Of a stretch of 64,000 nucleotides of DNA, positions 14,062 to 29,747 are shown piece after piece. This stretch comes from an uncultured Selenomonadaceae bacterium (GTDB lineage: Bacteria > Bacillota > Negativicutes > Selenomonadales > Selenomonadaceae), in NCBI GenBank assembly GCA_905234195.1, contig CAJOFR010000003.1, positions 1 through 64,000 on the forward strand, read 5' to 3'. Numbering within the stretch: position 1 is the first letter of the stretch; every line of letters begins with the position of its first letter. The position numbers and the translations under genes were made by a program. The notes under the pieces are model-generated. The model saw nothing but the letters and a program-made list of their open reading frames with translations. It was not told the DNA's origin and searched no databases.

Positions 14062-14140
14062 TTTTAAGGGATAAGGGAAAAGAATCTTATCGCTTACCCC
14101 TTTCCACTTTCCACTTGCCCACTTGCCCCTTATCACTTAA
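14053..14140. repeat. Heptamer-type repeat, site 2, between convergent genes
   Basis: Degenerate 7-base units on both arms: AGGGATTAG and AAGGGATAAGGG on the plus strand, and AAGTGATAAGGGGC with three AAGTGG-type units on the minus strand. The opposing arms can pair (GATAAG with CTTATC), so it may terminate both convergent transcripts. It contributes the stop codons of both the 111-residue gene and ileS. Confidence 0.65.
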
Positions 14141-17100
14141 CAACGACGGCGAGAGAAATTTTTTCTCCGTTAATGTCCCACTCCTTGAAATTTTCGCGGG
14201 CTTCGTCAAAAATAATCTCTTCGGCAAGCGCAACCGCTTTAATCTCGTCGGAATTACGTTTGATAATTTCGGCGAGCTTTTCATTTCCCCGCGCGAAAAT
14301 TTTAATCCTGTCAGTCACTTCAAATTTTGAATCGCGACGCATCGTTTGAATCTTGCTGATAATTTCGCGAACAAAACCCTCTTCAATCAAAGCGGGCGTC
14401 AGTTCCGTCGAAAGCGCAATCGAAACCTCGTTATCGCTCTGACAATTATAACCTTCGCTCTGCGTTATCGTAACTTCGACATCTTCCGCCGTCAAAATAA
14501 CTTCGCCGCTCTTCAAACTCAATTTCAATTCGCCGGTTTTATCAAGTTCAGCCTTCGCCGCCGCGCCGTTAATTTTTTCCAGCGTAGCTTTGACTTCGCC
14601 GATCTGCTTGCCGACTTTTTTGCCGAGCACGCGGAAATTCGGCTTGAAGATATATTTAACAAACTCTTCCATATCCGCGCGGAACTCAACGGCTTTAACG
14701 TTCAGTTCGTCCTCGACAATCTCAACAAAAAATTTCGGCAACTCTTCCGGAGCTTTGACGAACATTTTCGCGACGGGCTGACGATTTTTAATATTCGCGG
14801 CGTTGCGGGCAGCACGACCCAGCACGACGATTTTCAAAACGGTGTCCATATTCTTTTCAAGCTCGGCGTCAATCATTTTTTCGTCGGCGGCAGGGAAGTC
14901 ACAAAGATGAACACTTTCGACGGCTTCCTTGTCAATCGAGCAAACGAGATTGCGATAAATATTTTCCGTGATAAAAGGAACCATCGGCGCGGCCGCCTTC
15001 GCCAAAGTCACGAGCGCAGTATAAAGCGTCATGTAGGCGTTAATTTTGTCCTGCTCCATTCCCTTCGCCCAAAAGCGCGCGCGGCTCCTGCGGACATACC
15101 AATTAGACAGCTCGTCAACAAAATTCTGCAGTGCCTTCGCCGTTTCGGGAACCTTGTAATTTGTCAAGCACTCGTCGACAGTTTTTACCATCGTGTTCAG
15201 CCGCGACAAGCACCACTTATCCATAACACTAAGCTTGTCATAATCGAGCTGATATTTCGTGGCGTCGAAGTTGTCGATATTCGCGTAGAGGACGAAGAAA
15301 GCGTAGGTATTCCACAGCGTGCCCAAAAATTTTCTCTGTCCTTCGACAACCGCATCGTCATGAAAACGATTCGGCAACCAGGGCGCGCTGTTCTCGTAAA
15401 AATACCAGCGAATTGCGTCCGCGCCATGCTTTTTCAAAGTTTCCATAGGCGCGACGGCATTGCCCTTCGACTTCGACATTTTCTGCCCGTCCTTGTCCAG
15501 CACGAGACCCAGCACGATAACATTTTCAAAGGACGTTTTATCAAACAGCAACGTCGAAATTGCAATGAGCGAATAAAACCAACCGCGCGTTTGGTCAACC
15601 GCCTCGCTGATAAAATCTGCGGGGAAGTGCTCCTCAAAAATTTTCTGATTCTCAAAAGGATAATGCCATTGCGCAAAAGGCATCGCCCCGCTGTCAAACC
15701 AACAGTCAATAACTTCAGGTACACGATGCATTTCGCCGCCGCACTCCGGACAAGCAAAGGTCACGTTGTCAATGTACGGGCGGTGCAACTCAATATCGTC
15801 CGGGCAATTTTTCGACAACGACTTCAATTCCTCAATCGAGCCGATAGAATGTTGGTGCCCGCAACTGCACTCCCAAATATTCAGCGGCGTCCCCCAATAA
15901 CGGTTGCGCGAAATTCCCCAGTCCTGCACGTGCTCCAGCCAATCGCCAAAACGCCCCGTGCCAATCGTCGGAGGAATCCAATTAATTGTCGCGTTATTTT
16001 TCAGCAGATTTTCTTTGACCGCCGTCATCTTGATAAACCACGACTCGCGCGCGTAATAAATCAGCGGCGTATCGCATCGCCAACAATGCGGATAGCTGTG
16101 CTCGAAGACCGGAGCTTTAAAAAGTTTGCCGGTTTTTTTCAAGTCGGCAAGAATCAGCGGGTCAGCGTCCTTGACAAAAGTCCCCGCCCAAAAAGTTTCC
16201 GCAGTCATGTTGCCTTTCGCGTCGACAAACTGAACAAAAGGCGTGTCGTATTTTTTGCAAACGCGGTTGTCATCTTCACCGAACGCCGGCGCGCAGTGCA
16301 CAATCCCCGTGCCGTCTTCCGTCGTAACGTAATCGTCGCACGTCACGAAGAAAGCGCGCTTGCCGGATTTTTTAACAATCTCGTCCGCGAAAGGATAAAG
16401 CGGCTCATATTTTTTGTATTCGAGTTCCGCGCCCTTGAACCTCTCCAAAATTTTTCTGTCGCCTTCCACGTTTTCAAAAACTTTTTCGACGAGGGCTTCG
16501 GCAAGAATATATTTCGTGTCGCCCACTTGAATTTTCACGTAGTCGACCTTCGGATTAACGCACAACACCAAATTTGAAGGAAGTGTCCAAGGCGTCGTCG
16601 TCCACGCCAAATAATATGCGTCGTCGTCCGCAGATTTAAACTTCGCAATCGCCGAACGCTCCTTCAGATCTTTGTAGCCGAGCGAAACTTCATGACTGGA
16701 AAGAGGAGTGCCACAGCGCGGGCAGTACGGAACAACCTTGTGCCCCTTGTAAAGCAAACCTTTCTCCCAAATTTTTTTCAAAGCCCACCATTCAGATTCG
16801 ATATAATAATTTTCGTAAGTTATGTAGGGATTTTCCATATCCGCCCAAAATCCAACGACGCCCGAAAATTCTTCCCACATGGTTTTATATTTCCAAACGG
16901 ACTCGCGACATTTTTTAATAAAGGGTTCAATCCCGTACGCCTCGATTTGTTCCTTGCCGTTAATCCCGATAAGTTTTTCGACTTCCAATTCGACGGGGAG
17001 CCCGTGAGTATCCCAGCCCGCCTTGCGCAAAACTTTTTCGCCCTTCATGGAATGATAACGCGGAAATAAATCTTTAATGACGCGCGTCAAAACATGCCCG

Positions 17101-17267
17101 ATATGCGGCTGCCCGTTCGCTGTCGGCGGCCCGTCATAAAAAGTATAATTCTTGCAACCTTCGCGCTGGTCAATCGCCTTCTGCGCGATATTATTTTCCG
17201 CCCAAAAATTTTCAACTTCCTTTTCGCGGCTTGCGAAATCCAAATTAGTATCCACTTTACGATACAT
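14133..17267 (-). CDS. ileS: Isoleucyl-tRNA synthetase, long (IleS2-like) type
   Basis: Class I synthetase charging tRNA-Ile, 1044 residues. The HIGH motif is in TANGQPHIGHVLTR, the editing-domain region follows (WTTTPWTLPSN), KMSKS is in GQKMSKSKGNAV, and a tRNA-binding region carries the WYVRRSRARFW motif. The wording around HIGH (LRKAGWDTHGLPVELEVEK) and the length match the IleS2/eukaryote-like subgroup rather than the common bacterial IleS1; some members are naturally mupirocin-resistant, which is inference here. A GGCGGAGG site precedes the start. No T-box leader was found in the short upstream region; an extended -10 promoter lies there instead. The TGA stop sits in the heptamer repeat. 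Confidence 0.96.
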   Translation of the reverse strand: MYRKVDTNLDFASREKEVENFWAENNIAQKAIDQREGCKNYTFYDGPPTANGQPHIGHVLTRVIKDLFPRYHSMKGEKVLRKAGWDTHGLPVELEVEKLIGINGKEQIEAYGIEPFIKKCRESVWKYKTMWEEFSGVVGFWADMENPYITYENYYIESEWWALKKIWEKGLLYKGHKVVPYCPRCGTPLSSHEVSLGYKDLKERSAIAKFKSADDDAYYLAWTTTPWTLPSNLVLCVNPKVDYVKIQVGDTKYILAEALVEKVFENVEGDRKILERFKGAELEYKKYEPLYPFADEIVKKSGKRAFFVTCDDYVTTEDGTGIVHCAPAFGEDDNRVCKKYDTPFVQFVDAKGNMTAETFWAGTFVKDADPLILADLKKTGKLFKAPVFEHSYPHCWRCDTPLIYYARESWFIKMTAVKENLLKNNATINWIPPTIGTGRFGDWLEHVQDWGISRNRYWGTPLNIWECSCGHQHSIGSIEELKSLSKNCPDDIELHRPYIDNVTFACPECGGEMHRVPEVIDCWFDSGAMPFAQWHYPFENQKIFEEHFPADFISEAVDQTRGWFYSLIAISTLLFDKTSFENVIVLGLVLDKDGQKMSKSKGNAVAPMETLKKHGADAIRWYFYENSAPWLPNRFHDDAVVEGQRKFLGTLWNTYAFFVLYANIDNFDATKYQLDYDKLSVMDKWCLSRLNTMVKTVDECLTNYKVPETAKALQNFVDELSNWYVRRSRARFWAKGMEQDKINAYMTLYTALVTLAKAAAPMVPFITENIYRNLVCSIDKEAVESVHLCDFPAADEKMIDAELEKNMDTVLKIVVLGRAARNAANIKNRQPVAKMFVKAPEELPKFFVEIVEDELNVKAVEFRADMEEFVKYIFKPNFRVLGKKVGKQIGEVKATLEKINGAAAKAELDKTGELKLSLKSGEVILTAEDVEVTITQSEGYNCQSDNEVSIALSTELTPALIEEGFVREIISKIQTMRRDSKFEVTDRIKIFARGNEKLAEIIKRNSDEIKAVALAEEIIFDEARENFKEWDINGEKISLAVVVK

Positions 17268-17381: not shown

Positions 17382-17594
17382 TTAATCGTCGAAAAAATTT
17401 TTCGTCTCGGTGTCGAAATTTTGAATGCCCGCCGCCGCAACTTGATCCAATACCTCTTCGGACAACTCACAATCGAAAAAATCTTCCCTGCTCTCTTCAC
17501 GTCGATTGACTTGTAAAAGTTTTTCCAGCAAGCTTTCTTTAATCTTACTGTACTTAGAAAAATCTATCTTTATGAGTTCGTTTTCGATGTCCAT
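17382..17594 (-). CDS. 70-residue leader-like peptide, candidate substrate of the NHLM-type exporter
   Basis: A short acidic protein that is the last gene of the export locus. Residues 1-30 form a charged helix (KIKESLLEKLLQ). Residues 43-56 read ELSEEVLDQVAAAG, close to the LSDEELDxVAGG motif that precedes the cleavage site in many double-glycine leaders of exported peptides, but ending AAAG rather than AGG. What follows is a 14-residue acidic tail, IQNFDTETKNFFDD, without cysteine, serine or glycine. The ribosome site AGGGAGG is one of the best in the operon, as expected for a structural peptide. The upstream HExxH gene ends 15 bases before. It could instead be a small regulator or inhibitor; the role as cargo is inference from the motif and the neighbours. 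Confidence 0.6.
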   Translation of the reverse strand: MDIENELIKIDFSKYSKIKESLLEKLLQVNRREESREDFFDCELSEEVLDQVAAAGIQNFDTETKNFFDD

Positions 17595-17609
17595 TTTAAA
17601 ATCCTCCCT

Positions 17610-18437
17610 TCATGAAATATTTTCCAGCCGGTCTGCGATACTGCGCCCGGCAATTTTGCGAAGAATATCCGTTTCAGAAATCCCTGCCACTTCATTTTCA
17701 ATTTCGTCAAGAATTTTGTCGACGGCTTGATAAATTTTCGGACGCTCCTCCGGCAAAACTTTTTGGCAGTAAAATTGCAGACGCCCTTCGCATTTTTCGC
17801 CATGCAGCCCGAAAAAAATTCTCTGCCGCGCAGCACTGAAGTTGCCGAACGCCGCGATTTGCCCTAAAGTGTCAGCCAAAATTTCGTCAAGCGCGTGATT
17901 TTTCATGCCGCCGAAAAGCCGCAAAGTCTCGTAGTGCGCGGACTCGTGACGCAATCTCAACCTGTGAGAAATATTCAGCCATTCTTCGTCAGCCAGCCCA
18001 AAATTTCCGGCGGCAACGTTGCTGTAAGGCGCGCGATTAAGCAAAATGATTCTGTGACGTTCGCCGCGAATTTTCGCAGGTATGGTGAAGGCGTTCACCG
18101 TGTCGACGATTTTTTTCACTTCGGACGCCCCGCTCAAAAAACTTGCCAGCGCAGAAAAATCCTCGTGGTCAAAAGTTTCAACCACCGGCAATTTTCCGGC
18201 AAGTGTCTGCGCAAAAAAAATTTTTATCGCATTTGTATTCCGCCAATCGAAATTAAAATCCTTGTCGTAAATTTTCGCAAGCAGATAAATCGCGTCGAAT
18301 CCGTTTGCTTTTCGCCAGTGCTGTAAAAAATTTTCATCTTCCAGCGGCAATTTTGGCAAGTTCTGCGGAATTTGATAACACTGCGCCAAATACTCCCGTG
18401 CACTTATCGGCGTTTGGTTAGATAATTTTTTTGACAT
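17610..18437 (-). CDS. HExxH metallopeptidase-like protein of the export locus
   Basis: A 275-residue soluble protein with no signal peptide. Residues 162-192 carry RLRHESAHYETLRLFGG followed by NHALDEILAD: an HExxH zinc motif (H164, E165, H168) with a downstream glutamate (E185) at a spacing compatible with a gluzincin-type zinc site. The rest is not familiar in detail. I have the impression of a similar RHExxH-LFG-LDExxAD pattern in uncharacterised proteins near peptide export genes, but cannot confirm this without a search. The ribosome site is GCGGTGAT. It lies between the possible structured RNA and the 70-residue peptide gene, so trimming of that peptide is a plausible job. Alternatives are a zinc-binding structural protein or a self-protection protease. 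Confidence 0.65.
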   Translation of the reverse strand: MSKKLSNQTPISAREYLAQCYQIPQNLPKLPLEDENFLQHWRKANGFDAIYLLAKIYDKDFNFDWRNTNAIKIFFAQTLAGKLPVVETFDHEDFSALASFLSGASEVKKIVDTVNAFTIPAKIRGERHRIILLNRAPYSNVAAGNFGLADEEWLNISHRLRLRHESAHYETLRLFGGMKNHALDEILADTLGQIAAFGNFSAARQRIFFGLHGEKCEGRLQFYCQKVLPEERPKIYQAVDKILDEIENEVAGISETDILRKIAGRSIADRLENIS

Positions 18438-18480
18438 AACATATCACCGCTTAAAATTTTTTTTCCTAAACTGAAAGGGA

Positions 18481-18711
18481 GGCGGAAAATTTTCCGCCCC
18501 CCCCCCGTTGGGATGATTTGATTAAATTTTGACGAGAGACCGTCAACATACGTTTGGGCATATTCCCCGCGCTCGAAGGTAGGGGATTTTGCTGTCGTCA
18601 ACCAACGCTCCGACAAAGGCGAAGTCTTACAAGGTTTCCTGCAAGGATCGATGCCCCAACCCCTTTTTAGAAACATAAATCAGGAAAATTTATCTTTCGC
18701 CCTATTATACG
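18481..18711 (-). ncRNA. Candidate structured RNA between sigma factor and HExxH gene
   Basis: This 315-base gap (18438-18752) has no convincing gene. The minus strand offers a TATAAT (18711-18706) without a good -35, then a region that can fold as nested stems: GTTGGG/CCCAAC (18660-18655 with 18512-18507), TTGACGA/TCGTCAA (18601-18595 with 18535-18529) and an apical TCCCC/GGGGA (18586-18582 with 18568-18564). It is followed by a run of ten G (18506-18497) and a perfect palindrome GGCGGAAAATTTTCCGCC (18498-18481). It could be a stand-alone RNA (a 6S-like layout is one thought) or a leader controlling the HExxH and peptide genes. No known riboswitch consensus was recognised. Confidence 0.35.
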
Positions 18712-18752
18712 TCGAAAATTATTTTTTGCTAGAGTCAATCCAAAAAATTTTT

Positions 18753-19313
18753 TTACTGCTTTTTAAAAATTTCGCGCAGTTTATTTAAAGCCTGGTGCTG
18801 AATAAATCCGACGTTGCTCAAACTCAAGCCCGTCACTTCCGCAATTTCCTTGTTCTTCAGCCCGCCAAAATATCTCAGCCCCATAATACGCTGTTGCCTT
18901 TCGTTCAGCTGCCCCAAAGCCCGCAACAATTCTTCGTTCAATTCGGCGGCAAGAAATTTTTCTTCAGGTTGCTCACTTATCGAGGATTCAACGTTGAAAA
19001 AATCTTCCCAACTGTCTTCTTTTTGGCGAACCGCTCTGCGAAAATAATCCGTAACAGAATTTCTCGCGATTGTGAAAATCCACGTGGAGAAGGCAAATTT
19101 TTCGTTGTAGCTCCTCAAATTCAAAAAGACTTTCGTAAAAATTTCGCTGACAATATCGTCGGCAACAGTCGGATTTTTTACTTTCGCGAAGACGACATTA
19201 TACACGCGCGGGAAAAAATTTTCGTAAAGCTCGGTAAATGCCTCCTCGTCGTCCACAGCTTTTTTCGCCAGCCGGCTGAAGTAGTCTATAGAATTTTTTT
19301 TCAAGCTATCCAT
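18753..19313 (-). CDS. ECF-type RNA polymerase sigma factor
   Basis: A 186-residue sigma-70 family protein of the extracytoplasmic-function group. Region 2 includes ELYENFFPRVYNVVFAKV, the ADDIVSEIFTKVF helix and FSTWIFTIARNSVTDYFRR. Region 4 includes LNERQQRIMGLRYFGGLKN and the DNA-binding helix-turn-helix KEIAEVTGLSLSNVGFIQHQA. It starts 9 bases after the stop of the second ABC transporter with GAGGTGAAATT as ribosome site, so it is part of the export operon. No membrane anti-sigma factor is encoded next to it. The likely targets are promoters for this system, possibly for the downstream RNA and peptide genes, by inference. Confidence 0.9.
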   Translation of the reverse strand: MDSLKKNSIDYFSRLAKKAVDDEEAFTELYENFFPRVYNVVFAKVKNPTVADDIVSEIFTKVFLNLRSYNEKFAFSTWIFTIARNSVTDYFRRAVRQKEDSWEDFFNVESSISEQPEEKFLAAELNEELLRALGQLNERQQRIMGLRYFGGLKNKEIAEVTGLSLSNVGFIQHQALNKLREIFKKQ

Positions 19314-19322
19314 AATTTCACC

Positions 19323-22010
19323 TCAAGCAATTTGCCTTTTTACCAGGTCAGAAAAAATTCCGCCCTTAGCAACAAGTTCGTCGAAAGTCCCGCTTTCGGC
19401 AATCTTCCCCTTGTCGAGAACGATAACGCGATCGCAATCCCGAATTGTAGAAAGACGATGAGCGACAATAATTCGCGTGACGTGCCTTTTGTTCAAACTT
19501 TCAGTGACTATTGCTTGCGTGCGATTGTCGAGCGCGGAAGTTGCCTCGTCGAAAATCAGAATAGAAGGTTTTGCCGCCAAAGCCCGCGCGATTAAAATCC
19601 TCTGCCGTTGTCCGCCGCTGATATTGGAACTGCCCTCGCTTATCACGGTATGCATCCCCATCGGCATTTTTTTTATGTCCTCCTCAAGTCCGGCGGCTCT
19701 TGCGGCGTCCCAAGCGTCGTCCATTGTCAAAGAAGTCGTCCCGATTATGTTCGTGAAAATATCTCCCGTCATTAGCTGCCCGTTTTGCAAGACAACTCCC
19801 ATTTGTGAACGAACCGAAGAAACATTTAACTCCGAAAGATCTTGCCCGTCGTAATAAATTGCGCCGGTCTTCGGTTTTTCAAAGCCGAGCATTAAACGCA
19901 AAAGAGTAGACTTGCCACAGCCGCTCTTCCCGACAATCGCGACGTTTTCGCCCGCCACGATTCTAAAGCTCATGTCGTCAACAATATTCGGTCCGCCTTC
20001 GACGTAGGAGAAACTCAAATGATTAACTTCAATCGCGCCGGACAAAACTTCCGCGTCGGGTTTGTCTTCGGCAATTTCTGGAATCGCTTCCAAAATCGGA
20101 CGAAGGTTTTCAATGTGCGGTCTGATTGTGAAAAACGTTCCGAGTATACCCGTCAAGCCGACCACCGCCGCATTTAAACCGGTGAAGGCAGACAGAAAAG
20201 CAAGGAACTTCGGATATTCAATTTCAGTGACAAATTTTGCGCCGTCCATTTTGCCGAGCACATAAAACGTCATGCAAAAAATCATAAATGTAAAAATCAG
20301 CGGCTGAATCGCGGAAATAATCGTGTTGTAATTATTTTGCCAGCGAAGTTTTAAATTCCACTTCCATTCTTCGCCGAAAACTTTTGCCCAAAGATAATAC
20401 GCCTGTTCTTCTGCGCCCTGTATTCTGAATTTTGGCAGTCCGGTAAAAATTTGTTGGACGATGCCCGACGTCAAATTTTTTGCTTCAACCATTTTCCGCT
20501 GGAAGGAGCCGACTCTTCGGTAAATGAAAAATGTCAAGCCGAAATATACCAGCCAAAGGACTACCGCAAGTGCCGTGAGTTTCAAGCTGTAATAGCACAT
20601 CAAAATTAAGCTCCACACGGAAAAAATCATGTTGAAAATCGTCGAGACAACCTGGTTATTCAAGACTGCTTTGAGGGATTCCATTCCCAAGACGCGCTGT
20701 GTCAATTCGCCCGATTGAAATTGTCGGAAAAAACTTGTCGGCAAGGCGAGTATCCTCCCCCAGAGTGCCGCCTCTATCGACATATCAAATCTTGAAGTGA
20801 TTCTCATGACGGCGATTGCGCGGACGAGTGCCACCGCCGCCAGCGTGAAACTGGAAACGATTGAAACTTGCGTGACGACCACCAAGCCTTCTCTGTCGAG
20901 AATCGGAATTATGTCCGCGAAAATACTTTCGGTGATTATCGGTGAAACAATTGGCACGAGCCCCGCGATAAAACTTGCAAAAAGAATCGCTTTAATATCG
21001 ACGCTCCAACTTCTTTCAATCGCGAACTTAAACAAGTCCGGAAAAGTCAGCTGTCTCAGCGGCAAACCGGCATAACATTCAAAAGCACTCTCGTTAATTT
21101 TTTTCGCAACTTCTTCGTTAATGATAATCTCTTCAGGATTTTTCGCGGTGAGCAGACGATAATCTCCGGGTCCTTTCGGAATAAAAGCCGCCAGCTCTTT
21201 GTTTTCTCCGTAGTATCCGATAATAACGCCGCTGTCCTTCGTGTACCATTCGGGCACAAGAGTTATCAAACGCATTTGCATGTTACATTTTTGCACGAGC
21301 CGACGAATCAAACCAATCTGATCCAGTTTACGGACAATCTCCGGCGGAAGTTGCAAATTATTCACGGGCATACCAAGAGCCTTCGCGATATTTTTTATCA
21401 GGAAGGCAGTTTCTTCGAGCTTGTCGCCGCTACCTGTTTTTTCACGATAAAGCGGCTCCTCGCCCAAAAGATTTCCAATCGCCTCATTCAAAAGATTTTG
21501 TTTATGATATTTGCGAATCTCCAACCGGTCTGCAGTGTTTTTATCTTCGGATTTAAAACGAATACCGACGAACATTGAGAAGATTTTTTCGTTTTCTGAA
21601 AAATCCTCCAGCAAATCATCTAAATTATTTTCGCCGCCGTTAAGTACGCTCCCGTCAATCCAGCTTATCAAAATATCGTCGCCCTTATCCGCAAACAATC
21701 TGAAATACGGCAGGGCGACCAATTTTTTGAACCAAGTGCGCATCCATTTTATTTGAACGTCTGCGGGAATTTCGTCGAAGGAAAAAATTTCAAACTCCGA
21801 ATCCTGCACTGCGTAAACTTCCACGTCAATATTTTCAAAGTCATCAAAAGAAGGGTAGGCGGCGGCGTTTGCTGTCAGCTCCATTAAAAAAAATTTCCGA
21901 AAAGATTTTTCGTCCCTAGTGACGGCGTAAACTTCAACCTTGCCGGATTTTAAAACCGCAAATTTATTTTCATCTTGAAGCCGAAATCTTTGACCGGCAA
22001 TCAGTTGCAT
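19323..22010 (-). CDS. NHLM-type bacteriocin ABC transporter, permease/ATPase with N-terminal sensor-like domain
   Basis: An 895-residue half-transporter. The first 330 residues are soluble: a cyclic-nucleotide-binding-like beta domain (QRFRLQDENKFAVLKSGKVEVYAV) and a linker. Then come about six membrane helices (residues 330-640) and an ATPase domain with Walker A GKSGCGKST, signature ISGGQRQR and Walker B ILIFDEATSALD. This architecture, without a peptidase domain, matches the second ABC protein of NHLM-type peptide export systems. An AGGAGG site precedes the ATG, 13 bases after the stop of the C39 transporter. It probably forms a heterodimer with, or works beside, that protein in moving a processed peptide across the inner membrane. 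Confidence 0.88.
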   Translation of the reverse strand: MQLIAGQRFRLQDENKFAVLKSGKVEVYAVTRDEKSFRKFFLMELTANAAAYPSFDDFENIDVEVYAVQDSEFEIFSFDEIPADVQIKWMRTWFKKLVALPYFRLFADKGDDILISWIDGSVLNGGENNLDDLLEDFSENEKIFSMFVGIRFKSEDKNTADRLEIRKYHKQNLLNEAIGNLLGEEPLYREKTGSGDKLEETAFLIKNIAKALGMPVNNLQLPPEIVRKLDQIGLIRRLVQKCNMQMRLITLVPEWYTKDSGVIIGYYGENKELAAFIPKGPGDYRLLTAKNPEEIIINEEVAKKINESAFECYAGLPLRQLTFPDLFKFAIERSWSVDIKAILFASFIAGLVPIVSPIITESIFADIIPILDREGLVVVTQVSIVSSFTLAAVALVRAIAVMRITSRFDMSIEAALWGRILALPTSFFRQFQSGELTQRVLGMESLKAVLNNQVVSTIFNMIFSVWSLILMCYYSLKLTALAVVLWLVYFGLTFFIYRRVGSFQRKMVEAKNLTSGIVQQIFTGLPKFRIQGAEEQAYYLWAKVFGEEWKWNLKLRWQNNYNTIISAIQPLIFTFMIFCMTFYVLGKMDGAKFVTEIEYPKFLAFLSAFTGLNAAVVGLTGILGTFFTIRPHIENLRPILEAIPEIAEDKPDAEVLSGAIEVNHLSFSYVEGGPNIVDDMSFRIVAGENVAIVGKSGCGKSTLLRLMLGFEKPKTGAIYYDGQDLSELNVSSVRSQMGVVLQNGQLMTGDIFTNIIGTTSLTMDDAWDAARAAGLEEDIKKMPMGMHTVISEGSSNISGGQRQRILIARALAAKPSILIFDEATSALDNRTQAIVTESLNKRHVTRIIVAHRLSTIRDCDRVIVLDKGKIAESGTFDELVAKGGIFSDLVKRQIA

Positions 22011-22022
22011 AGCCGCGCCTCC

Positions 22023-24221
22023 TTAATCATCTTTGCTGCGCTCTTCAATCAAACGGCGATAAGGTCCGTCGTGTTGCATCATTTCCCTGTGTGTTCCGCG
22101 CTCGACGACCTTGCCGCGATTCAAAACAACAATCTCATCGCAATCCCGAATCGTCGACAGCCTGTGAGCAACAATGAAACACGAACAGCCGCGCCGACGA
22201 ATATTTTCAAGCACAGTTTGTTCAGTCACGGGGTCAAGCGCGCTCGTTGCCTCGTCAAGCACCAAAATCGACGGGTTATTTGCCAGCGCGCGGGCAATCT
22301 CCAGACGCTGCCTTTGTCCTCCGCTGAAATTCAAACCGCCTTCAGAAACTTGTGCCTCGTAGCCGCCGTCTAATTGCAAAATATCTTCGTGGATACAAGC
22401 GTCGCGCGCCGCCTGAATCACGTCGCTTTTTTTTATGGAGGTGTCGAAGAGCGTGATATTTTCGTGAACGGTGCCGGTTATCTGAAAAATATCCTGGTCG
22501 ACGGACGAAAGAGAATTTGTTATGACGGCGCGGGGGATATCCCGACGTTTCACGCCGTCGAAGAGAATATCGCCCGACCATTCCTCGTAAAAGCCCGTGA
22601 TAATTTTCGACAGCGTTGACTTGCCGCTGCCCGAAAACCCGACAACCGCAACCCAACGACCGGGTTTGATATGAAGATTAAAATTTTCGAGGAGCGGCGG
22701 CTCAAGCGGACTGTAACCGAAGTTAATACTTTTCAGCTCAATATCTCCGGAAAGACGCGCGCCGTCAAATTTTTTCGCGTCGTCTTCCGCAGGATAATTC
22801 AGCGGATCAATTTCGTAGCGGTAAACGTCGTTCAGCCTCTGCATTTGCATTTCAGTCGTCTGCAAAGTCGTGCCGAGCATAACGATTTTGTCGAAGGGCT
22901 CTTGAAAACTTGCCATGAGATTTTGAAACGCCGTGAAAATACCGGCGGTCATTACCCCTTCCATAATTGAAAAGCCGCCGATTGTTATAATTAATGCCGA
23001 GTTCACGCCGGACAGGAACGTAGGCAAAACAGTCATCGCCAAAGATTGTAATTGAACTTCTTGTTCGCCGAGCGAAGACTTTGCGTGATAGCCCGCCCAC
23101 TTCGCGAAAAAATCTGTTTCGTTTCCGTTCGCCTTTATCGTTTCAATCATGCGCAAGCCGTTCATAGCGACGCCGTATTCTTTTCCTCTGTCCTGCTGAA
23201 TGCGCATATTTAAATCCGTGACTTTTCTGCGCAAGACAAAAAAAATGGCGAGCGAAATGACACTGAACCCGACGCCGATTATCGTTAGCGGGATGCTGTA
23301 TTGCAGGAGGAGCAGGAGATAAAAGACGACAACCAAAAAATCGAGCACGGCAGTTGCCGCCTGGTTGGACAGGACGCTTGCAACAGTATCGTTGAAGGCG
23401 ACGCGAGTACCAATTTCGCCGGCGTACCTCTGTTGAAAAAATTGCATGGGCAGTCTGATTACGTGCCAAAAAAATTTACTGGAGTCAGCCAGCGTCAATT
23501 TTTTTTGCCAGCGCGTAAGAAAAAAAGTCCTCATCGTCGTGAGCACGCCCGTCAAAAAAATCGTAATGCCCATCGCCAAACCAAGATTGAACATCCAATT
23601 CGGGTGCTTGCTGCTCAAAATTTCGTCCAGGAAAATTTGGTTGAAGACCGGCTTGGCGAGATTCGGGAAGACCATAGCCAGACCGATTAGCATGACGAGG
23701 AGCATTGCCCATTTGTCTTCCAAAAGTTTTTCGGCAATTGCCTTGACGATGCTGTAGCGATGACCTGCGGGCTTAAAATTTTCGTCGGGCTTTACAACGA
23801 GAGCGATTCCCGTGTAAGACGTGCGGAAACTTTCCCAAAGCACTGTCCGTCTGCCCATGCCCGGGTCGTTCAAATAAACAACGTCGTCTACAATTCCTTC
23901 AAGGACTACAAAATGATTGAACTCCCAATGAATAATCATCGGAAATTCTTTTTCGCGGAGGGTGCCGGCTTTCCAGCGATAACCCTTTGCCACGCAGTTA
24001 AACCTTCTTGCCGCCTTGAGTATGTTGGAGGCCTTTGAGCCGTCACGATTCACGCCGCATTCTTGCCGCAATTTTTCGAGTGGCACCCAAAGTCCGTAGT
24101 ACGCCAACACCATCGCGAGGGATGCCGCGCCGCATTCAACGGCCTCCATTTGTAAAATCGTGGGAACTTCTTCACGCCGCCCATGCCCGCGTCGAAAAAA
24201 ATTTTTTATTTTATTGAGCAT
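22023..24221 (-). CDS. NHLM-type peptidase (C39)/ABC export transporter
   Basis: A 732-residue protein that would cleave a leader from a peptide and export the remainder. The N-terminal C39 peptidase domain shows the catalytic cysteine in MEAVECGAAS (C30), the histidine in HWEFNHFVVLEG (H103) and the aspartate in YLNDPGMG (D119), so it looks active. Six membrane segments follow (about residues 160-430), then an ATPase with Walker A GFSGSGKST, signature FSGGQRQR and Walker B ILVLDEATSALD. C39 peptidases cut after GG, GA or related pairs, which should be compared with the AAAG of the 70-residue peptide. The ribosome site is AGGAGCAGG, four bases downstream of the adaptor gene. Confidence 0.92.
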   Translation of the reverse strand: MLNKIKNFFRRGHGRREEVPTILQMEAVECGAASLAMVLAYYGLWVPLEKLRQECGVNRDGSKASNILKAARRFNCVAKGYRWKAGTLREKEFPMIIHWEFNHFVVLEGIVDDVVYLNDPGMGRRTVLWESFRTSYTGIALVVKPDENFKPAGHRYSIVKAIAEKLLEDKWAMLLVMLIGLAMVFPNLAKPVFNQIFLDEILSSKHPNWMFNLGLAMGITIFLTGVLTTMRTFFLTRWQKKLTLADSSKFFWHVIRLPMQFFQQRYAGEIGTRVAFNDTVASVLSNQAATAVLDFLVVVFYLLLLLQYSIPLTIIGVGFSVISLAIFFVLRRKVTDLNMRIQQDRGKEYGVAMNGLRMIETIKANGNETDFFAKWAGYHAKSSLGEQEVQLQSLAMTVLPTFLSGVNSALIITIGGFSIMEGVMTAGIFTAFQNLMASFQEPFDKIVMLGTTLQTTEMQMQRLNDVYRYEIDPLNYPAEDDAKKFDGARLSGDIELKSINFGYSPLEPPLLENFNLHIKPGRWVAVVGFSGSGKSTLSKIITGFYEEWSGDILFDGVKRRDIPRAVITNSLSSVDQDIFQITGTVHENITLFDTSIKKSDVIQAARDACIHEDILQLDGGYEAQVSEGGLNFSGGQRQRLEIARALANNPSILVLDEATSALDPVTEQTVLENIRRRGCSCFIVAHRLSTIRDCDEIVVLNRGKVVERGTHREMMQHDGPYRRLIEERSKDD

Positions 24222-24225
24222 AAGT

Positions 24226-25191
24226 TCACCTGCTCCTCAACCACTGACTGAGTTTGTAGAAAACTTTTTCAATCGGCGGCTTTCTTTCGATAACTATTGA
24301 GCCGGTGCAAAAACTCCCCGCAGTTATAGGTTTGTGTTCGCCAATAATCGAAGTCCAAAGGTAACCTGACTCCGAATCCTTATCTTTGACGAGATTAAAT
24401 CTAATTTCCATGAGCGCGCTGCTTTGGGAAGTTTGAATCCACTGCGCAAGTTGGTCGTTGCCGAGATTTAAGCGCAGATATTGAGCAGAAACGGGATACT
24501 GCGAAACTGAACGAACGACGCCTATTAAACTTCCCGTCTGCGTAATATCCACGCCGTTTGGCGCAAGCTGGATCGTCATACCCGGTTCAACCCTCTTGCC
24601 TTTATCGACGGGAATATAAAAAATTCCCTCAAATTCGTCGCGTCCCGAATCAACTCTAATCGTGCAGACAGGAGTGCCGCTGGAAACGACAGAGCCTTTT
24701 TCTACAAAAATGCTGTCAACAATTCCGTCGTATTCGCTGTAAACATATTCGGCGACATTTTTTTGTTCCTTCTTCGCGCCGTATTGATAAGCCTTGTTCA
24801 TTGCGTCCCTGTCGTTTGTGGCGAGACCCAAACTGTATTGTCCCATTTTGACATCGGCGGATTGTTCTGCCTGCTCGAAATAAGCAATCAAATCGCCCTT
24901 GTGAATTTTCTGCCCCTCTCGAATGTAAACTCTTTCTACTTTTCCGCCGGATATATGCGCGACATTCACGACGCCTGCCGCGTCCATAATCATACCCATT
25001 CCGTCCGCCGTGACTGTAAACGCGCCGAAGATAGACCAGAGCACAACCGAAAACAAGAACACACCTATTGCCGCTATACTTATCCAGCCGACCGGCATAG
25101 TTATTGGCAACATGGTATCTAATTTTTCCGGCGAGCGCAATTTATTCAGTGCCTCTTGGCTAAAAATTTGTGACGGGTCAGCCAACATCAT
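24226..25191 (-). CDS. HlyD-family secretion protein (NHLM-type adaptor)
   Basis: Inner-membrane anchored adaptor of about 321 residues. After a short cytoplasmic start (FSQEALNKLRSPEKLD) comes one membrane helix (about residues 37-60 of the ORF) and a lipoyl/barrel region (VERVYIREGQKIHKGDLIAYF and EYDGIVDSIFVEKGSVVSSG). The RSPEKLD start and compact size fit the adaptor of NHLM-type export systems. The exact start is uncertain: TTG at 25203 and ATGs at 25191 and 25188 are in frame. All overlap the end of the upstream adaptor gene, so translation is coupled. Confidence 0.82.
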   Translation of the reverse strand: MMLADPSQIFSQEALNKLRSPEKLDTMLPITMPVGWISIAAIGVFLFSVVLWSIFGAFTVTADGMGMIMDAAGVVNVAHISGGKVERVYIREGQKIHKGDLIAYFEQAEQSADVKMGQYSLGLATNDRDAMNKAYQYGAKKEQKNVAEYVYSEYDGIVDSIFVEKGSVVSSGTPVCTIRVDSGRDEFEGIFYIPVDKGKRVEPGMTIQLAPNGVDITQTGSLIGVVRSVSQYPVSAQYLRLNLGNDQLAQWIQTSQSSALMEIRFNLVKDKDSESGYLWTSIIGEHKPITAGSFCTGSIVIERKPPIEKVFYKLSQWLRSR

Positions 25192-26434
25192 CACCGCTTT
25201 CAATTATGACATCCACTTTCAGACCTTCCTTGAGGTCGTCGGTGCCGGAAACTATGACAACTTCCTCCGCCTTCAAGCCGCCGGTAACTTCGATATAATT
25301 TTCGTCACTGAAGCCCGTTGAAATTTTCCGCGAATGAATCACGCCTTCTTCGTCGACGACAAAAACGGAATCAAGCGCGGCTCCTGCCAAAGCCCTTGTC
25401 GGAATTGTCAAGCAGGAAATAGGATTAAAAGATTGAAGGCGCGCGGAGCTGTAAGTTTGCGGCTCCAACACTCCCGCGCTGTTATCGACTTCCCAAATAA
25501 CTTTTCGTATGCTTGCGGGCTCGTTGGTTGCGGGGGTAATGTCGATTATTTTCGCCGTGAAAGGATGCCGTCTGCCCGTGTTGCCGGGCTCGTATTCTGT
25601 ATCATAAATTTTTGAAAGATCCGCGTGGTGGAAAGAGAGCTCAGCCATGCCGCCGACCTTTAAATTTTTCGTCGCCGTGTCCTCGACCGTCATGGAAAAA
25701 TAAAGATTTTTAAAATCTCCGATTAAAGCCATTGCCGTGCCCGCCGTGACGTAGGAACCTTGCGGGCGATACAAAATCAAAACTTCGCCTTCAATGGGCG
25801 CGGCGACATGCGCATAAGAATTTTCTATCAAGAGCTGTTCCTTCTGCGCAAGATAATAATCTTTCTGCGCGAGGAGCTGTTCCCTTTGCACGTGAACATT
25901 TTTTAAATTAACTTGCGCCTCCTTGTAAAGAGCTTCGGTCTCCTCAAATTTCTCGACAGAAACCGCGTTTTCCGCCAGGAGGTTACTGTAACGATTGTAT
26001 TCGCTTTTCGCGTGAGCCAAAGACGACTCCGCCTTGACAAGTTCGTTATCGTTTTTGACAAGTTCGTTATCGTTTTGGATAATATCAATTTCGGCTTGAC
26101 GAATCCTTATCGGGTGAGAGTCGTTCGTCAGCGTGAAGAGCGTTTGACCTTTTACGACGTGTTGATTTTTCTGCACGTCGACTGTGGTAATTCTGCCGTC
26201 GATAAGCGCGACGGCGTCCGCCATTTTTTCCGAGTAGAGGTTAATTGTGTCCAACACGAGCTGCGGTTTCATTGAGCGCATCTGAACTTTTGCTCCGCGC
26301 AGGGAAATTTTTTGCTCGGACATTCTTTCGACGATTTGAGCTTCGCTGCGGTGATTCAAGTACGTGCCGTAAAACAGCAAACCGAGAATTAAAACTAACA
26401 TCGCGCCCAGCCCGAACAAGAACCAACGTTTCAC
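25178..26434 (-). CDS. HlyD/RND-type periplasmic adaptor protein, first gene of the export operon
   Basis: A 418-residue membrane-fusion protein: N-terminal membrane helix (LFGLGAMLVLILGLLFYG), a split lipoyl domain (DGRITTVDVQKNQHVVKGQ and APIEGEVLILYRPQGSYVTAG), a central coiled-coil hairpin, beta-barrel and membrane-proximal domain. The hairpin contains a duplicated heptad, NDNELVK twice, also visible in the DNA. GTG start at 26434 with AGGAAGGAG upstream. It is the first gene after the operon promoter. A second adaptor beside the NHLM-type one suggests that the export path is extended across the periplasm, presumably to a TolC-like channel. Confidence 0.85.
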   Translation of the reverse strand: MKRWFLFGLGAMLVLILGLLFYGTYLNHRSEAQIVERMSEQKISLRGAKVQMRSMKPQLVLDTINLYSEKMADAVALIDGRITTVDVQKNQHVVKGQTLFTLTNDSHPIRIRQAEIDIIQNDNELVKNDNELVKAESSLAHAKSEYNRYSNLLAENAVSVEKFEETEALYKEAQVNLKNVHVQREQLLAQKDYYLAQKEQLLIENSYAHVAAPIEGEVLILYRPQGSYVTAGTAMALIGDFKNLYFSMTVEDTATKNLKVGGMAELSFHHADLSKIYDTEYEPGNTGRRHPFTAKIIDITPATNEPASIRKVIWEVDNSAGVLEPQTYSSARLQSFNPISCLTIPTRALAGAALDSVFVVDEEGVIHSRKISTGFSDENYIEVTGGLKAEEVVIVSGTDDLKEGLKVDVIIESGDDVG

Positions 26435-26510: not shown

Positions 26511-29500
26511 TTATCCGCTTAATCTTTTCAGCACCATTGAAACGATATCCAGGAGATTTTTTTTGCTTTCGAGCTTGATAAAAATTGTGCGCTCCTTCTG
26601 AAAATCTTTCATGCGTCCCTTGAAAATATTTTTGAGTTCGATAAAACCTTTTGGCGAAATTTTTGCGGAGTCCCCGAAAATAAATTCCACGCGCATATTA
26701 TTTTCCTGCAGAGACTTCACGCCGAGATTTTTAGCGGCGCATTTAATTTTCGCGACCTGCAAAAGATTCATTACGGGTTGTGTCGGTTCGCCGAAACGAT
26801 CTATCATCTCGTCAAGCAAATCATTAACTTCGATCTCGTTGCGCATGACCGCAAGCCGCTGATAAATTTCGATTTTATGACCGGAATTGGGAATATATTT
26901 TTCGTCGATAAAAGCTTCGACGGGCAAAGAGATTGTCGGCTCCGGCTCCGCAATTTTTTCCTGCCTGTGTTGAAGTTTCGCGACCGCCTCTTCCAAAAGC
27001 TGACAGTACATTTCAAAACCGACGCTGGCAATGTGTCCGTGCTGTTGTGCTCCGAGCAAATTTCCCGCGCCGCGAATTTCCAAATCGCGCATCGCAATCC
27101 GAAAACCCGCGCCGAGTTGGGCGAACTCTTTCATGGCGTGCAATCTCTTTTCGGCAGTCTCCCCCAAAACTTTTGTGCGACGATAGACGAAATAAGCGAA
27201 CGCCATTTTATGAGAACGCCCGACGCGCCCGCGCATTTGATAGAGCTGCGCGAGCCCGAAGTTATCCGCGTCGTAAATTATAATCGTGTTCGCGTTGGCG
27301 ACGTCCAGCCCGTTTTCAATAATCGTCGTGCACAACAAAACATTGAACGCGCCTTCATAAAAATCCATCATTATCTTTTCGAGAAAAACATCTGATTGCT
27401 GACCGTGCGCCGTCTGAATATTTGCTTCGGGCACGAGATTTTCCAGGCGTTCGCGCATGAAGTCAATCGTTTCAATTCTGTTGTAGACGAAATAAACTTG
27501 TCCGCCGCGCCGAATTTCCCGGCGTATCGCCTCCGCAATAATTTCGTCGTCGTCTTCGATAACGTAGGTCTGCACGGGGAATCTTTCAGCGGGCGGCGTC
27601 GTAATCAAACTCATATCGCGCGCCTTGACAAGGGACATGTGCAGAGTTCGCGGAATGGGTGTCGCGCTCATGGCAAGAACGTCCACGCCGTCCGAAAGGG
27701 AACGGATTTTTTCTTTCTGCTTGACGCCGAATCTTTGTTCCTCGTCAATAATAATCAAGCCGAGATTTTTAAACTCAATCTTAGAATTTAAAATCGCGTG
27801 CGTACCAATCAGAATATCGACTTGACCTGCGCGAACTTTTTGCAGAGTGATACGCTGTTCCTTCTGCGAACGGAAACGACAAATCACATCAACGGTCGGC
27901 AAAAATCCCGTGAACCTTTCAGAAAAAGTTTGGTAGTGCTGTTGCGCAAGGACGGTCGTGGGCACGAGCATTGCAACCTGTTTGCCGTTCATTGCCGCCT
28001 TGTACGCCGCGCGAATCGCGACTTCAGTTTTGCCGAAACCGACATCGCCGCAAATAAGTCTGTCCATCGGGCGCGGGCTTTCCATATCGGCTTTGACTTC
28101 CTCGACGGCTTTAATTTGGTCGGGCGTCTCCTCGTAGGGAAATTTTTCCTCGAAGTCAGCTTGAGTAGCGTCGTCCTCGTCGAAGGCAAAACCTTTCGCG
28201 GCTTGACGGCGCGCATAAATTTCTATAAGTTTTTGAGCAATGTCCTCGACGGCGGCAGCTGCGCGGGATTTTGCGCGGTTCCAGTCGCCGGAGCCGAGCG
28301 TAGACAGGCGGGGCGTCGCGTCGTCGTCCGAAATATATTTCTGCAAAAATTGTACGGCGTCCGTCGGCAAATAAAGTTTATCGCCGCCGCCGTACTGAAT
28401 CTGCAAATAATCTCTGTGGAGCCCGTCAATTTCCAAAGTCTCGACGCCCAAATATTTTCCAATGCCGTTCGTCGTGTGAACAACATAATCGCCGGGACGA
28501 ATGTCGCGAAAATTTTTAATCGTGTCGCCGGCGTATTTCGGAGAATTTTTCAAGCGGCGGCGTTCGACTTGACTGCCGAGAATATCTTTTTCGGTGAAGA
28601 CGACGAGTTTCGCGGAAGGCAAAATAAATCCTTCGTTCAGCGTGCCGACTTGAAAATTTATCGCGCCTTCAAAATTTTTATTCGCCAGATATTTTTTCAG
28701 CCCGTCGAGTTTAGTTTGTGTCGCGAAGAGGATAAAAATTTTTCTGCCGAGATCTGTTTGCCGCTTGAGTTCGTCGACAAAAAATTCAACCTGGTTTTGG
28801 AAGGAGGCAACATTTTCCGAGCTTATCCCGAAGGACGATTCAATTTCAGCCGCGCGAATTTTTTTCAGCATAAGCGAAACATAAATCAGACTGCCCGCAC
28901 GAGAATTTTTAACTAGCTGGTCGAAAGAAAAGATATGCGGCTTGACGGCGGGGTCTTCCTGCACGAGCGCAGCGATTTCCTCCTGAATGCGGGCGGGCTC
29001 GTCAAAAATAATCGTGCCGTTTTCCCCCGCGCATGTCGTGAAAGGTTCAGCCCTCTTCGCGTCGCCGGCGTAGGCGGGCAAAATAATCGCGGCGTCGATA
29101 TTTTTTTCGGAGCGCAGTGTTTCGATACTAAATTCGCGCATTGAATCAACGGTCTCGTCAAAAAATTCTATGCGGTAGGGATTGGGCGCGTTTATCGCGA
29201 AAATATCGAGGATATCGCCGCGCACGCTGAACTTTCCAATTGCGTCGACTTCGTCGGAGCGTTCGTAACCTTGACTGACGAGTTTAGAAATTAATTTTTC
29301 CTGCTGAATTTCCTGACCGATTTCGATTTTGATTTGGTTTTTGGAAAAATCCTGCCGCGAAAAATCTTTTTTGACGGCGGCGGTTGGCGTGGCGAGGACG
29401 ATAAATTTTTCGCCGGCGGAAAGTCTCATTAAAATTTGCAGACGTTTTGCGCGTCGTTCGAGCCCGATTGTTCCGGCGCGCAGGGGAATTAAATCGAGTT

Positions 29501-29747
29501 CGGGGAGTTCTTCGACGGGAACTGCGGGCAAAAGTTCCGACAAGTCCGAAGTCCAGCCGGAGATTTTTTCTTTGTCGCTGACGATAATAATTGTCGGGCG
29601 CGGATTTTTCGCGAAGGCGGCAGCGATTGTCACGACTTTTTGCGTGCCTGAAACGCCGTAGATAGAAAATTCTTTTCGCCGCGTGAAAAAAAATGCCGCC
29701 TCGTCAATCGCAATATCTTTCAGTGCTGTTTCTAAAATTTTGTGCAT
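26511..29747 (-). CDS. mfd: Transcription-repair coupling factor Mfd
   Basis: DNA translocase that removes stalled RNA polymerase and recruits UvrA; 1078 residues, slightly short for the family. Visible parts are a UvrB-like N-terminal region, the RNA-polymerase-interacting CarD-like domain (GDYVVHTTNGIGKYLG), the helicase motor with Walker A GDVGFGKTEVAIRAAYKA, the DEEQ box (IIDEEQRFGVKQKEK), SATPIPRTLHMS, and motif VI (YQMRGRVGRS). The C-terminal TRCF domain follows (PVEAFIDEKYIPN). It is a housekeeping gene unrelated to the export operon downstream. Confidence 0.96.
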   Translation of the reverse strand: MHKILETALKDIAIDEAAFFFTRRKEFSIYGVSGTQKVVTIAAAFAKNPRPTIIIVSDKEKISGWTSDLSELLPAVPVEELPELDLIPLRAGTIGLERRAKRLQILMRLSAGEKFIVLATPTAAVKKDFSRQDFSKNQIKIEIGQEIQQEKLISKLVSQGYERSDEVDAIGKFSVRGDILDIFAINAPNPYRIEFFDETVDSMREFSIETLRSEKNIDAAIILPAYAGDAKRAEPFTTCAGENGTIIFDEPARIQEEIAALVQEDPAVKPHIFSFDQLVKNSRAGSLIYVSLMLKKIRAAEIESSFGISSENVASFQNQVEFFVDELKRQTDLGRKIFILFATQTKLDGLKKYLANKNFEGAINFQVGTLNEGFILPSAKLVVFTEKDILGSQVERRRLKNSPKYAGDTIKNFRDIRPGDYVVHTTNGIGKYLGVETLEIDGLHRDYLQIQYGGGDKLYLPTDAVQFLQKYISDDDATPRLSTLGSGDWNRAKSRAAAAVEDIAQKLIEIYARRQAAKGFAFDEDDATQADFEEKFPYEETPDQIKAVEEVKADMESPRPMDRLICGDVGFGKTEVAIRAAYKAAMNGKQVAMLVPTTVLAQQHYQTFSERFTGFLPTVDVICRFRSQKEQRITLQKVRAGQVDILIGTHAILNSKIEFKNLGLIIIDEEQRFGVKQKEKIRSLSDGVDVLAMSATPIPRTLHMSLVKARDMSLITTPPAERFPVQTYVIEDDDEIIAEAIRREIRRGGQVYFVYNRIETIDFMRERLENLVPEANIQTAHGQQSDVFLEKIMMDFYEGAFNVLLCTTIIENGLDVANANTIIIYDADNFGLAQLYQMRGRVGRSHKMAFAYFVYRRTKVLGETAEKRLHAMKEFAQLGAGFRIAMRDLEIRGAGNLLGAQQHGHIASVGFEMYCQLLEEAVAKLQHRQEKIAEPEPTISLPVEAFIDEKYIPNSGHKIEIYQRLAVMRNEIEVNDLLDEMIDRFGEPTQPVMNLLQVAKIKCAAKNLGVKSLQENNMRVEFIFGDSAKISPKGFIELKNIFKGRMKDFQKERTIFIKLESKKNLLDIVSMVLKRLSG

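Follow-up and report, generated by a model that had tools for sequence, protein, structure and literature searches.

We analyzed a putative peptide-export locus located in the first 64,000 nucleotides (hereafter, the window) of contig CAJOFR010000003.1, which belongs to the assembly of an uncultured Selenomonadaceae bacterium of the gut (GCA_905234195.1). All seven open reading frames (ORFs) that the original prediction had placed at this locus are present on the minus strand, and they encode two adaptors (HlyD1 and HlyD2), two ATP-binding cassette (ABC) transporters (ABC1 and ABC2), an extracytoplasmic function (ECF) sigma factor, a DUF7005 protein, and a small peptide referred to here as PEP (Table 1). 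The locus is flanked by mfd (26511-29747) and ileS (14133-17267), two names that were assigned by eye. From HlyD1 to the sigma gene, the gaps are -26 (i.e., the 3' end of HlyD1 overlaps HlyD2), 4, 12, and 9 bp, followed by 315 bp to DUF7005 and 15 bp to PEP. Lying only 9 bp behind ABC2, the sigma gene is probably part of the same operon.

Table 1. Features of the exporter locus, with coordinates in the window
Feature	Coordinates	Strand	Basis
HlyD1, RND_mfp/HlyD-like membrane-fusion adaptor	25178..26434	-	TIGR01730, 138.1 bits (cut-off 94.9)
HlyD2, NHLM-type secretion adaptor	24226..25203	-	TIGR03794, 217.6 bits (cut-off 156.2)
ABC1, NHLM peptidase (C39)/permease/ATPase	22023..24221	-	TIGR03796, 997.6 bits (cut-off 853.3)
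ABC2, NHLM permease/ATPase	19323..22010	-	TIGR03797, 761.1 bits over residues 206-894 (cut-off 709.4)
ECF sigma factor	18753..19313	-	TIGR02937, PF04542, PF08281
Predicted sigma promoter TAGC-N16-CGTATAA, upstream of DUF7005-PEP	18705..18731	-	matrix rank and pattern searches
Repeat element, probable IS200/IS605-type right-end relic	18531..18668	-	five further copies in the genome
DUF7005 protein, gluzincin-like HExxH...DExxAD signature	17610..18437	-	PF22541, 114.6 bits
PEP, 70 aa; probable sigma partner, encoded 15 bp after DUF7005	17382..17594	-	family distribution and sigma linkage
Leader-like motif of PEP, residues 44-55 (LSEEVLDQVAAA), AA at the Gly-Gly position	17430..17465	-	alignments

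The assignment of the locus to an NHLM-type exporter with an ECF sigma factor of its own was confirmed, as were both adaptors. All three models that define such an exporter (TIGR03794, TIGR03796, and TIGR03797) score above their curated cut-offs, and judging by homology HlyD1, HlyD2, ABC1, and ABC2 are a genuine, standard NHLM exporter cassette. Homologues of HlyD1 start NHLM operons in relatives. The C39 peptidase domain of ABC1 (PF03412, 117.5 bits) does carry the intact triad that had been claimed for it (Cys30, His103, and Asp119), and a Walker A motif is found at residue 528. ABC2 also proved to be the second transporter that was expected; its supposed cyclic nucleotide (cNMP)-binding-like domain was not recovered, as the N-terminal extension of 205 residues matched no Pfam family at E ≤ 1 and resembles a cupin or cNMP-like domain by eye only. 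The sigma factor consists of regions 2 and 4 only (PF04542 and PF08281/PF04545), which is the arrangement that defines ECF sigma factors. Across 189 genomes of the family, an NHLM peptidase transporter above its cut-off is found in 102 and a homologue of the sigma factor (E ≤ 1e-15) in 104. A second NHLM exporter, with an extra ABC gene ahead of it, is encoded in the same genome on another contig (L072 on contig C9, 5352-14139). Among the matches listed, the only PEP and the only sigma homologue of this genome are those in the window, not at the second exporter.

Promoter-like sites and dispersed double-glycine genes

Comparison of the sigma-PEP gaps of relatives from the same genus yielded the pattern TAAC-N16-CGTATAA, with sites lying between the two genes. 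A matrix built from 64 sites of these relatives, none of them from the window, placed 18731-18705 first among all window positions on both strands, with a score of 13.9 vs 1.7 for the runner-up. Searching the 66 genomes of the genus (our own included) for the exact pattern uncovered 486 sites, vs 96 for the backward control; there are up to 30 per genome, frequently in tandem at a spacing of a few hundred bp. Their number follows the presence of the two genes, as the mean is 8.8 in the 46 genomes with both sigma and PEP vs 2.1 in the 15 genomes with neither (Mann-Whitney p 1e-4), while the control pattern gives means of 1.43 and 1.40 for the same groups. Exact sites are entirely absent from 12 of those 15 genomes.

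The sites that were examined mostly precede genes whose products carry a double-glycine (GG) leader. Such an ORF was found downstream of 60 of 64 sites; for random points the figure was 252 of 2000 within the same regions and 14 of 2000 within 8 other loci. The 64 sites come from 20 regions of 8 genomes picked mostly for multiple sites, and are not a random sample of the 486. Two of the four misses (L260 and L263) are, by eye, GG leaders that escaped through the pattern or the choice of start codon, a third (L271) is the site that precedes PEP, and the last lies before a protein with a Sec-type signal. By eye, the cargo leaders share the consensus LSDEELDxVAGG. The mature parts measure 74-104 residues in 49 of the 60 ORFs and hold 0-3 cysteines in all of them. 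When seven of the ORFs were scanned, one was a Nif11 precursor above the cut-off, and six belonged to no family above its cut-off. In the regions L252-L271, GG-leader genes form arrays in which most genes have a promoter site of their own, and many mature parts there display a motif resembling N-x-Y-Y-L-N-G-K-x-I-x-R-x-E-A (by eye).

In the genome under study, the exact TAAC form occurs three times (vs one control match), each time before a GG-leader gene on contigs C23 and C27. On C27, the leaders resemble Nif11 and fall below the cut-off (27.1 bits for one of them with TIGR03798, cut-off 32.3); a further protein from that contig carries a CFI-box C-terminal domain above the cut-off. A looser form, WRVC-N16-CGTATAA, gave 9 matches vs 3 for the reversed control, namely the one before DUF7005 in the window, the three TAAC sites, and five others. 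With TAACNAA and one mismatch, two further sites appeared, one at a Nif11-like leader and one at an unrelated gene; the former (L295 from 951, on contig C11) is followed by a leader whose halves lie in different frames. Allowing up to two mismatches returned only background (46 matches vs 72 controls).

Collectively, these data suggest that the dispersed double-glycine-leader genes are probably the expected cargo of the exporter and that the sigma factor probably runs them as a regulon, for which it is likely to read promoters of the TAAC-N16-CGTATAA type. The absence of a modification enzyme from the window, to which the original prediction drew attention, is little informative because the cargo sits on other contigs. 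A search of the window for a radical SAM homologue gave only one weak match (39292-40467, 21% identity, E 7e-7), and a radical SAM/SPASM gene is present in the locus of some relatives.

Several observations weigh against this interpretation. The link from sigma factor to promoter is a statistical association, and the genomes share kinship, which means that the counts are not independent events. No exact site was found in 8 of the 46 genomes with sigma and PEP; conversely, 2 of the 15 genomes in which neither was detected carry 17 and 13 sites (these assemblies are 86% and 60% complete, respectively). Five of the nine loose-pattern matches in our own genome have no recognizable leader gene downstream. 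Outside the genus the sigma-PEP gaps differ in sequence, and the motif tests are confined to the genus.

It is conceivable that sigma, PEP, and exporter are neighbors through operon history only and that a different ECF sigma factor reads these promoters. Such a reading would draw on the associative nature of the promoter assignment and on the two site-rich genomes just mentioned. We give it very little weight, since site counts track the presence of sigma and PEP, a site stands between both genes in genus relatives and, in the window, one follows the sigma gene, and the window sigma factor is the single homologue at E ≤ 1e-15 among the matches listed for its own genome.

PEP, its linkage to sigma genes, and its leader-like motif

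The PEP of the window matched no Pfam or NCBIfam family at E ≤ 1, including the Nif11/NHLP precursor models TIGR03798 and TIGR03793. With a seven-member profile (E ≤ 0.01), however, the PEP family was detected in 100 of the 189 family genomes and 13 of the 30 genera. Because homologues are this widespread, the ORF is, on comparative grounds, a real gene. Thus, of the two genes whose lack of conservation was to have refuted the original prediction, the peptide gene is conserved, while DUF7005 accompanies NHLM genes in only a subset of loci (see below).

To quantify linkage, we compared 141 PEP places (the 7 weakest were omitted) with 134 sigma places (omitting the weakest of those listed and another that contains an internal stop). 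A sigma homologue lies within 1 kb of at least 65 of the 141 PEP places and within 8 kb of at least 96, against a rough uniform expectation of 0.2% for the shorter distance. Among the 65 close pairs, 62 are on the same strand, 57 have sigma upstream, and 19 are separated by 64-72 bp between match ends. Moreover, at least 94 of the 98 genomes with a counted PEP place also have a counted sigma place. In other genera, a frequent order is ABC1-ABC2-outer-membrane protein-sigma-PEP (e.g., L105, L122, and L124).

The linkage extends beyond the family. In a phylum sample of 398 genomes, the PEP profile matched 12, six of which are outside the family, and an ECF sigma gene adjoins or overlaps seven of the eight PEP places in those six genomes, with Nif11/NHLP precursors next to several of these places; as the eight include two orthologous pairs from one genus, they amount to about six independent cases, five with sigma. 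With a broader profile, one further genome came up, in which an ORF (L330, 1117-1740) joins the N-terminal domain of PEP to an unrelated C-terminal part without the leader motif; this ORF overlaps another that matches sigma factors over 41 residues. Given L330 and the places outside the family, it appears from the comparison that the N-terminal part, with its consensus DFSxxSxVKExLLxxLL, is what travels with sigma genes and that the tail is exchangeable. The 244 pattern matches in viral contigs included no PEP relative.

Adjacency to or overlap with the sigma gene, as expected of an anti-sigma factor gene, is therefore a property of the PEP family (a distance of 1 kb or less at no fewer than 65 of 141 places, and contact or overlap at 7 of the 8 distant ones). 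No membrane-like stretch was found in any of 49 PEPs. PEP and sigma distances are correlated (rho 0.77, with 0 of 1000 permutations as high), in a set of only 19 pairs in which binding and shared descent are inseparable.

At the C-terminal end, PEP resembles the leaders of the cargo. Leaders cut by C39 peptidases carry Leu at -12, Glu at -8, Leu at -7, and usually Val, Leu, or Ile at -4, and typically end in GG, GA, or GS, according to PMC6363468. The PEP consensus retains these recognition residues (the PEP of the window has Val at -8). In all 49 PEPs, close relatives included, AA stands in place of the Gly-Gly of the cargo. The leader-like character noted in the original prediction thus holds for the motif and not for its Gly-Gly end. 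GG does occur in two PEP-like matches from Spirochaetia, both of them weak (E 7e-3). Behind the AAA, a G is nearly invariant and NP follows in the majority. The tails, of 9-18 residues, are variable, hydrophilic, and mostly charged. Long forms with a CxxC...CxxC zinc-ribbon-like tail behind an AAG motif were also seen (L278, 1420-1776; L283, 1348-1728).

The original prediction took the peptide encoded at 17382-17594 for the exported product, either unmodified or modified by something new, to which DUF7005 might be added. The gene order and the leader-like motif fit such a role, as do the cargo-type promoter ahead of PEP and the presence of some PEP copies inside cargo-like arrays. We nonetheless consider it quite improbable, as none of the 49 PEPs offers a cleavable Gly-Gly, the mostly charged tails of 9-18 residues are unconserved, the sigma linkage reaches outside the family, and the promoter leads to unlinked genes for double-glycine precursors elsewhere in the genome.

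A second possibility is that PEP is an exported pheromone, cut near AAAG, whose variable tail of 9-18 residues is sensed outside the cell by Cache-HAMP-SpoIIE phosphatases or a hybrid kinase that in turn sets the sigma factor. In several other genera, genes for Cache-HAMP-SpoIIE phosphatases, STAS proteins, and RsbW-like ATPases do lie beside PEP or sigma, Anaerovibrio PEP has a hybrid kinase and a response regulator in its vicinity, and variable, hydrophilic tails would suit a signal. In those genera, partner switching may bring in a signal from outside the cell. We regard a pheromone role of PEP as unlikely: AA is not among the typical leader ends given above (PMC6363468), the residues behind AAA are themselves conserved, the N-terminal domain exists without the tail in L330, and neither a SpoIIE, STAS, or RsbW gene nor any other sensor gene is found between mfd and ileS in the window.

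The reading toward which we lean, by a narrow measure, is that PEP acts on the sigma factor as its inhibitor, and here too there are points to the contrary. No anti-sigma or FlgM family in Pfam matched the window PEP or 13 relatives, and no anti-sigma family in NCBIfam matched the window PEP or 7 relatives. At up to 45 of the 141 PEP places, no sigma gene is listed within 8 kb, for which short contigs and an incomplete sigma list may be a partial cause. These places include extra PEP copies in cargo-like arrays and in RsbW/STAS/SpoIIE operons, and in the latter an RsbW-like kinase could be the anti-sigma factor instead. The correlation of PEP and sigma distances may reflect shared descent alone. 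In addition, the window PEP lies 1.16 kb from sigma, with DUF7005 and a repeat in between, unlike most relatives that are near a sigma gene.

A few further matches were judged spurious: in the PDB, the PEP profile matched best to a helical stretch of EH domain-containing protein 2 (E 1e-3), and in Pfam, two long PEPs hit Nop52 below its cut-off (E 0.0015 and 0.0077).

DUF7005 and the repeat ahead of it

The HExxH protein of the original prediction is a DUF7005 member (PF22541) that does contain HExxH. Gluzincin metallopeptidases are defined by HExxH together with a downstream Glu in ExxxD. In DUF7005, all 45 homologues retain H164, E165, D184, E185, and D189, and 44 of them retain H168; the residues that define gluzincins are therefore present, and we take the HExxH...ExxAD signature to resemble that of gluzincin proteases. 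A sequence search of the PDB gave nothing better than E 0.3. We also considered whether DUF7005 could be an alpha-ketoglutarate HEXXH enzyme of the kind that acts on ribosomally synthesized and post-translationally modified peptides (RiPPs), for which NCBIfam presumably includes a model, and rejected it, as none of the 45 members matched such a model at E ≤ 1.

A search for DUF7005 found it in 33 of 151 family genomes, and 14 control genomes all lacked it. The 66 DUF7005 loci come from rumen Selenomonadaceae assemblies, Selenomonas ruminantium, Schwartzia, Anaerovibrio, Succiniclasticum and other Acidaminococcaceae, Spirochaetia from ruminants, and Synergistaceae, the last apparently of termite gut origin to judge from isolate names. 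Within seven genes on each side, NHLM genes occur in 13 of the 66 loci (with ABC2 directly before DUF7005 in 6, Synergistaceae included) and a PEP homologue (E ≤ 4e-11) in 8; NHLM genes are also near DUF7005 in 4 of 37 further regions from family genomes. Because it stands beside NHLM genes in only a subset of loci, DUF7005 is accessory, whereas PEP is a core part of the system. We propose that DUF7005 may be a soluble, metallopeptidase-like accessory that acts on PEP or on the switch.

Some individual neighborhoods deserve mention. In three Synergistaceae loci (L203, L205, and L208), DUF7005 directly follows NHLM ABC2, and in L205 it is followed by RsbW-, SpoIIE-, and STAS-like genes. In Anaerovibrio (L201, L184, L040, and L057), PEP lies near DUF7005, a hybrid kinase, and a response regulator whose receiver domain is C-terminal; the L201 and L040 loci additionally contain a radical SAM/SPASM gene.

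The gap between the sigma gene and DUF7005 contains a repeat (18531-18668), situated after the predicted promoter, with five other copies in the genome that are 74-81% identical, one of which lies at the 3' end of an ORF that resembles TnpB by eye. We also considered a structured RNA or riboswitch in the gap (18438-18752). The fold is stable (z -2.9). An Rfam search of the gap gave no match at the gathering cut-off, nor did three copies of the repeat at E ≤ 1. Because the element is a genomic repeat with one copy at a TnpB-like ORF, we read it as a relic of an insertion sequence (IS), probably an IS200/IS605 right end or omegaRNA.

A proposed switch and its relation to known systems

Homology and comparison among genomes support the identity of the exporter, the gene layout, the association of promoter and cargo, the sigma-PEP linkage, and the replacement of GG by AA. 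From these we infer that the sigma factor would read the promoters, that PEP would bind the sigma factor and dock on the exporter, and in which direction the regulation would run. Taken together, we think it reasonably probable that the locus is both the exporter and the control center for the secretion of dispersed double-glycine peptides, with PEP as the partner, or anti-sigma factor, of the sigma factor.

More specifically, HlyD1-HlyD2-ABC1-ABC2 would trim off leaders with a terminal Gly-Gly and secrete the peptides, and the ECF sigma factor would recognize the TAAC-N16-CGTATAA-type promoters and turn on unlinked cargo genes together with DUF7005-PEP. PEP would be the small soluble partner of the sigma factor, most likely its anti-sigma factor, and not ordinary cargo. 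Its N-terminal part would hold the sigma factor, and its C-terminal motif would imitate a cargo leader that, with AA, presumably stays uncut and could therefore dock on the C39 domain. Docking might tie the activity of the sigma factor to the occupancy of the exporter, in a logic akin to that of FlgM. When cargo is low, the free C39 domain would capture PEP, or the exporter would remove it, such that the sigma factor is freed and the cargo genes restart; when cargo fills the exporter, PEP would return to the sigma factor. That PEP is such an export-sensing anti-sigma factor, with its N terminus on the sigma factor and an uncleavable leader copy on C39, is a tentative proposal, to which we assign clearly less than an even chance.

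ECF sigma factors with an anti-sigma partner control peptide natural-product pathways in the lantibiotic clusters of Actinobacteria. In our case, the candidate partner is instead soluble and imitates an export leader, and the regulon consists of dispersed GG-leader genes in Bacillota. FlgM, in turn, is a small anti-sigma factor for flagellar sigma-28, which controls the cargo of the very export machine to which FlgM is coupled. Only the proposed logic is shared, since the exporter here is of the ABC/C39 and not the type III kind, and PEP has no Pfam match to FlgM.

The exporter cassette itself is known. As given in the NHLM/NHLP description (PMC2887384), TIGR03794, TIGR03796, and TIGR03797 likewise occur together, with Nif11-related or similar GG precursors that are also found away from the exporter; unlike in that cassette, a dedicated ECF sigma factor and PEP accompany the one described here. 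The word "sigma" does not occur in the main text of that article (Haft, Basu, and Mitchell 2010). The alpha-ketoglutarate HEXXH RiPP enzymes (PMC12636437) share with our locus an HExxH protein in a peptide-export context, whereas DUF7005 has no match to that family and carries the HExxH...ExxAD signature. Our literature search, which covered open papers, found no account of the present arrangement, of NHLM with a sigma factor, of C39 with an anti-sigma factor, or of DUF7005, and no export-sensing anti-sigma factor of an ABC exporter. What appears to be new is the cassette with its own sigma factor and a leader-mimicking candidate partner.

Many genomes encode Nif11/NHLP-type and other double-glycine precursors far from any enzyme or exporter, and we know of no explanation for how their expression is coordinated with export. 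A sigma factor encoded alongside the exporter, together with a promoter that can be read and a partner that mimics the leader, provides a concrete answer and allows the cargo of an exporter to be listed in silico. If PEP indeed couples the sigma factor to exporter occupancy, the FlgM principle would extend to ABC exporters, with an ABC/RiPP counterpart of FlgM in several Bacillota families, and in bacteria of the rumen and gut PEP would be a handle for activating secreted peptides that are silent.

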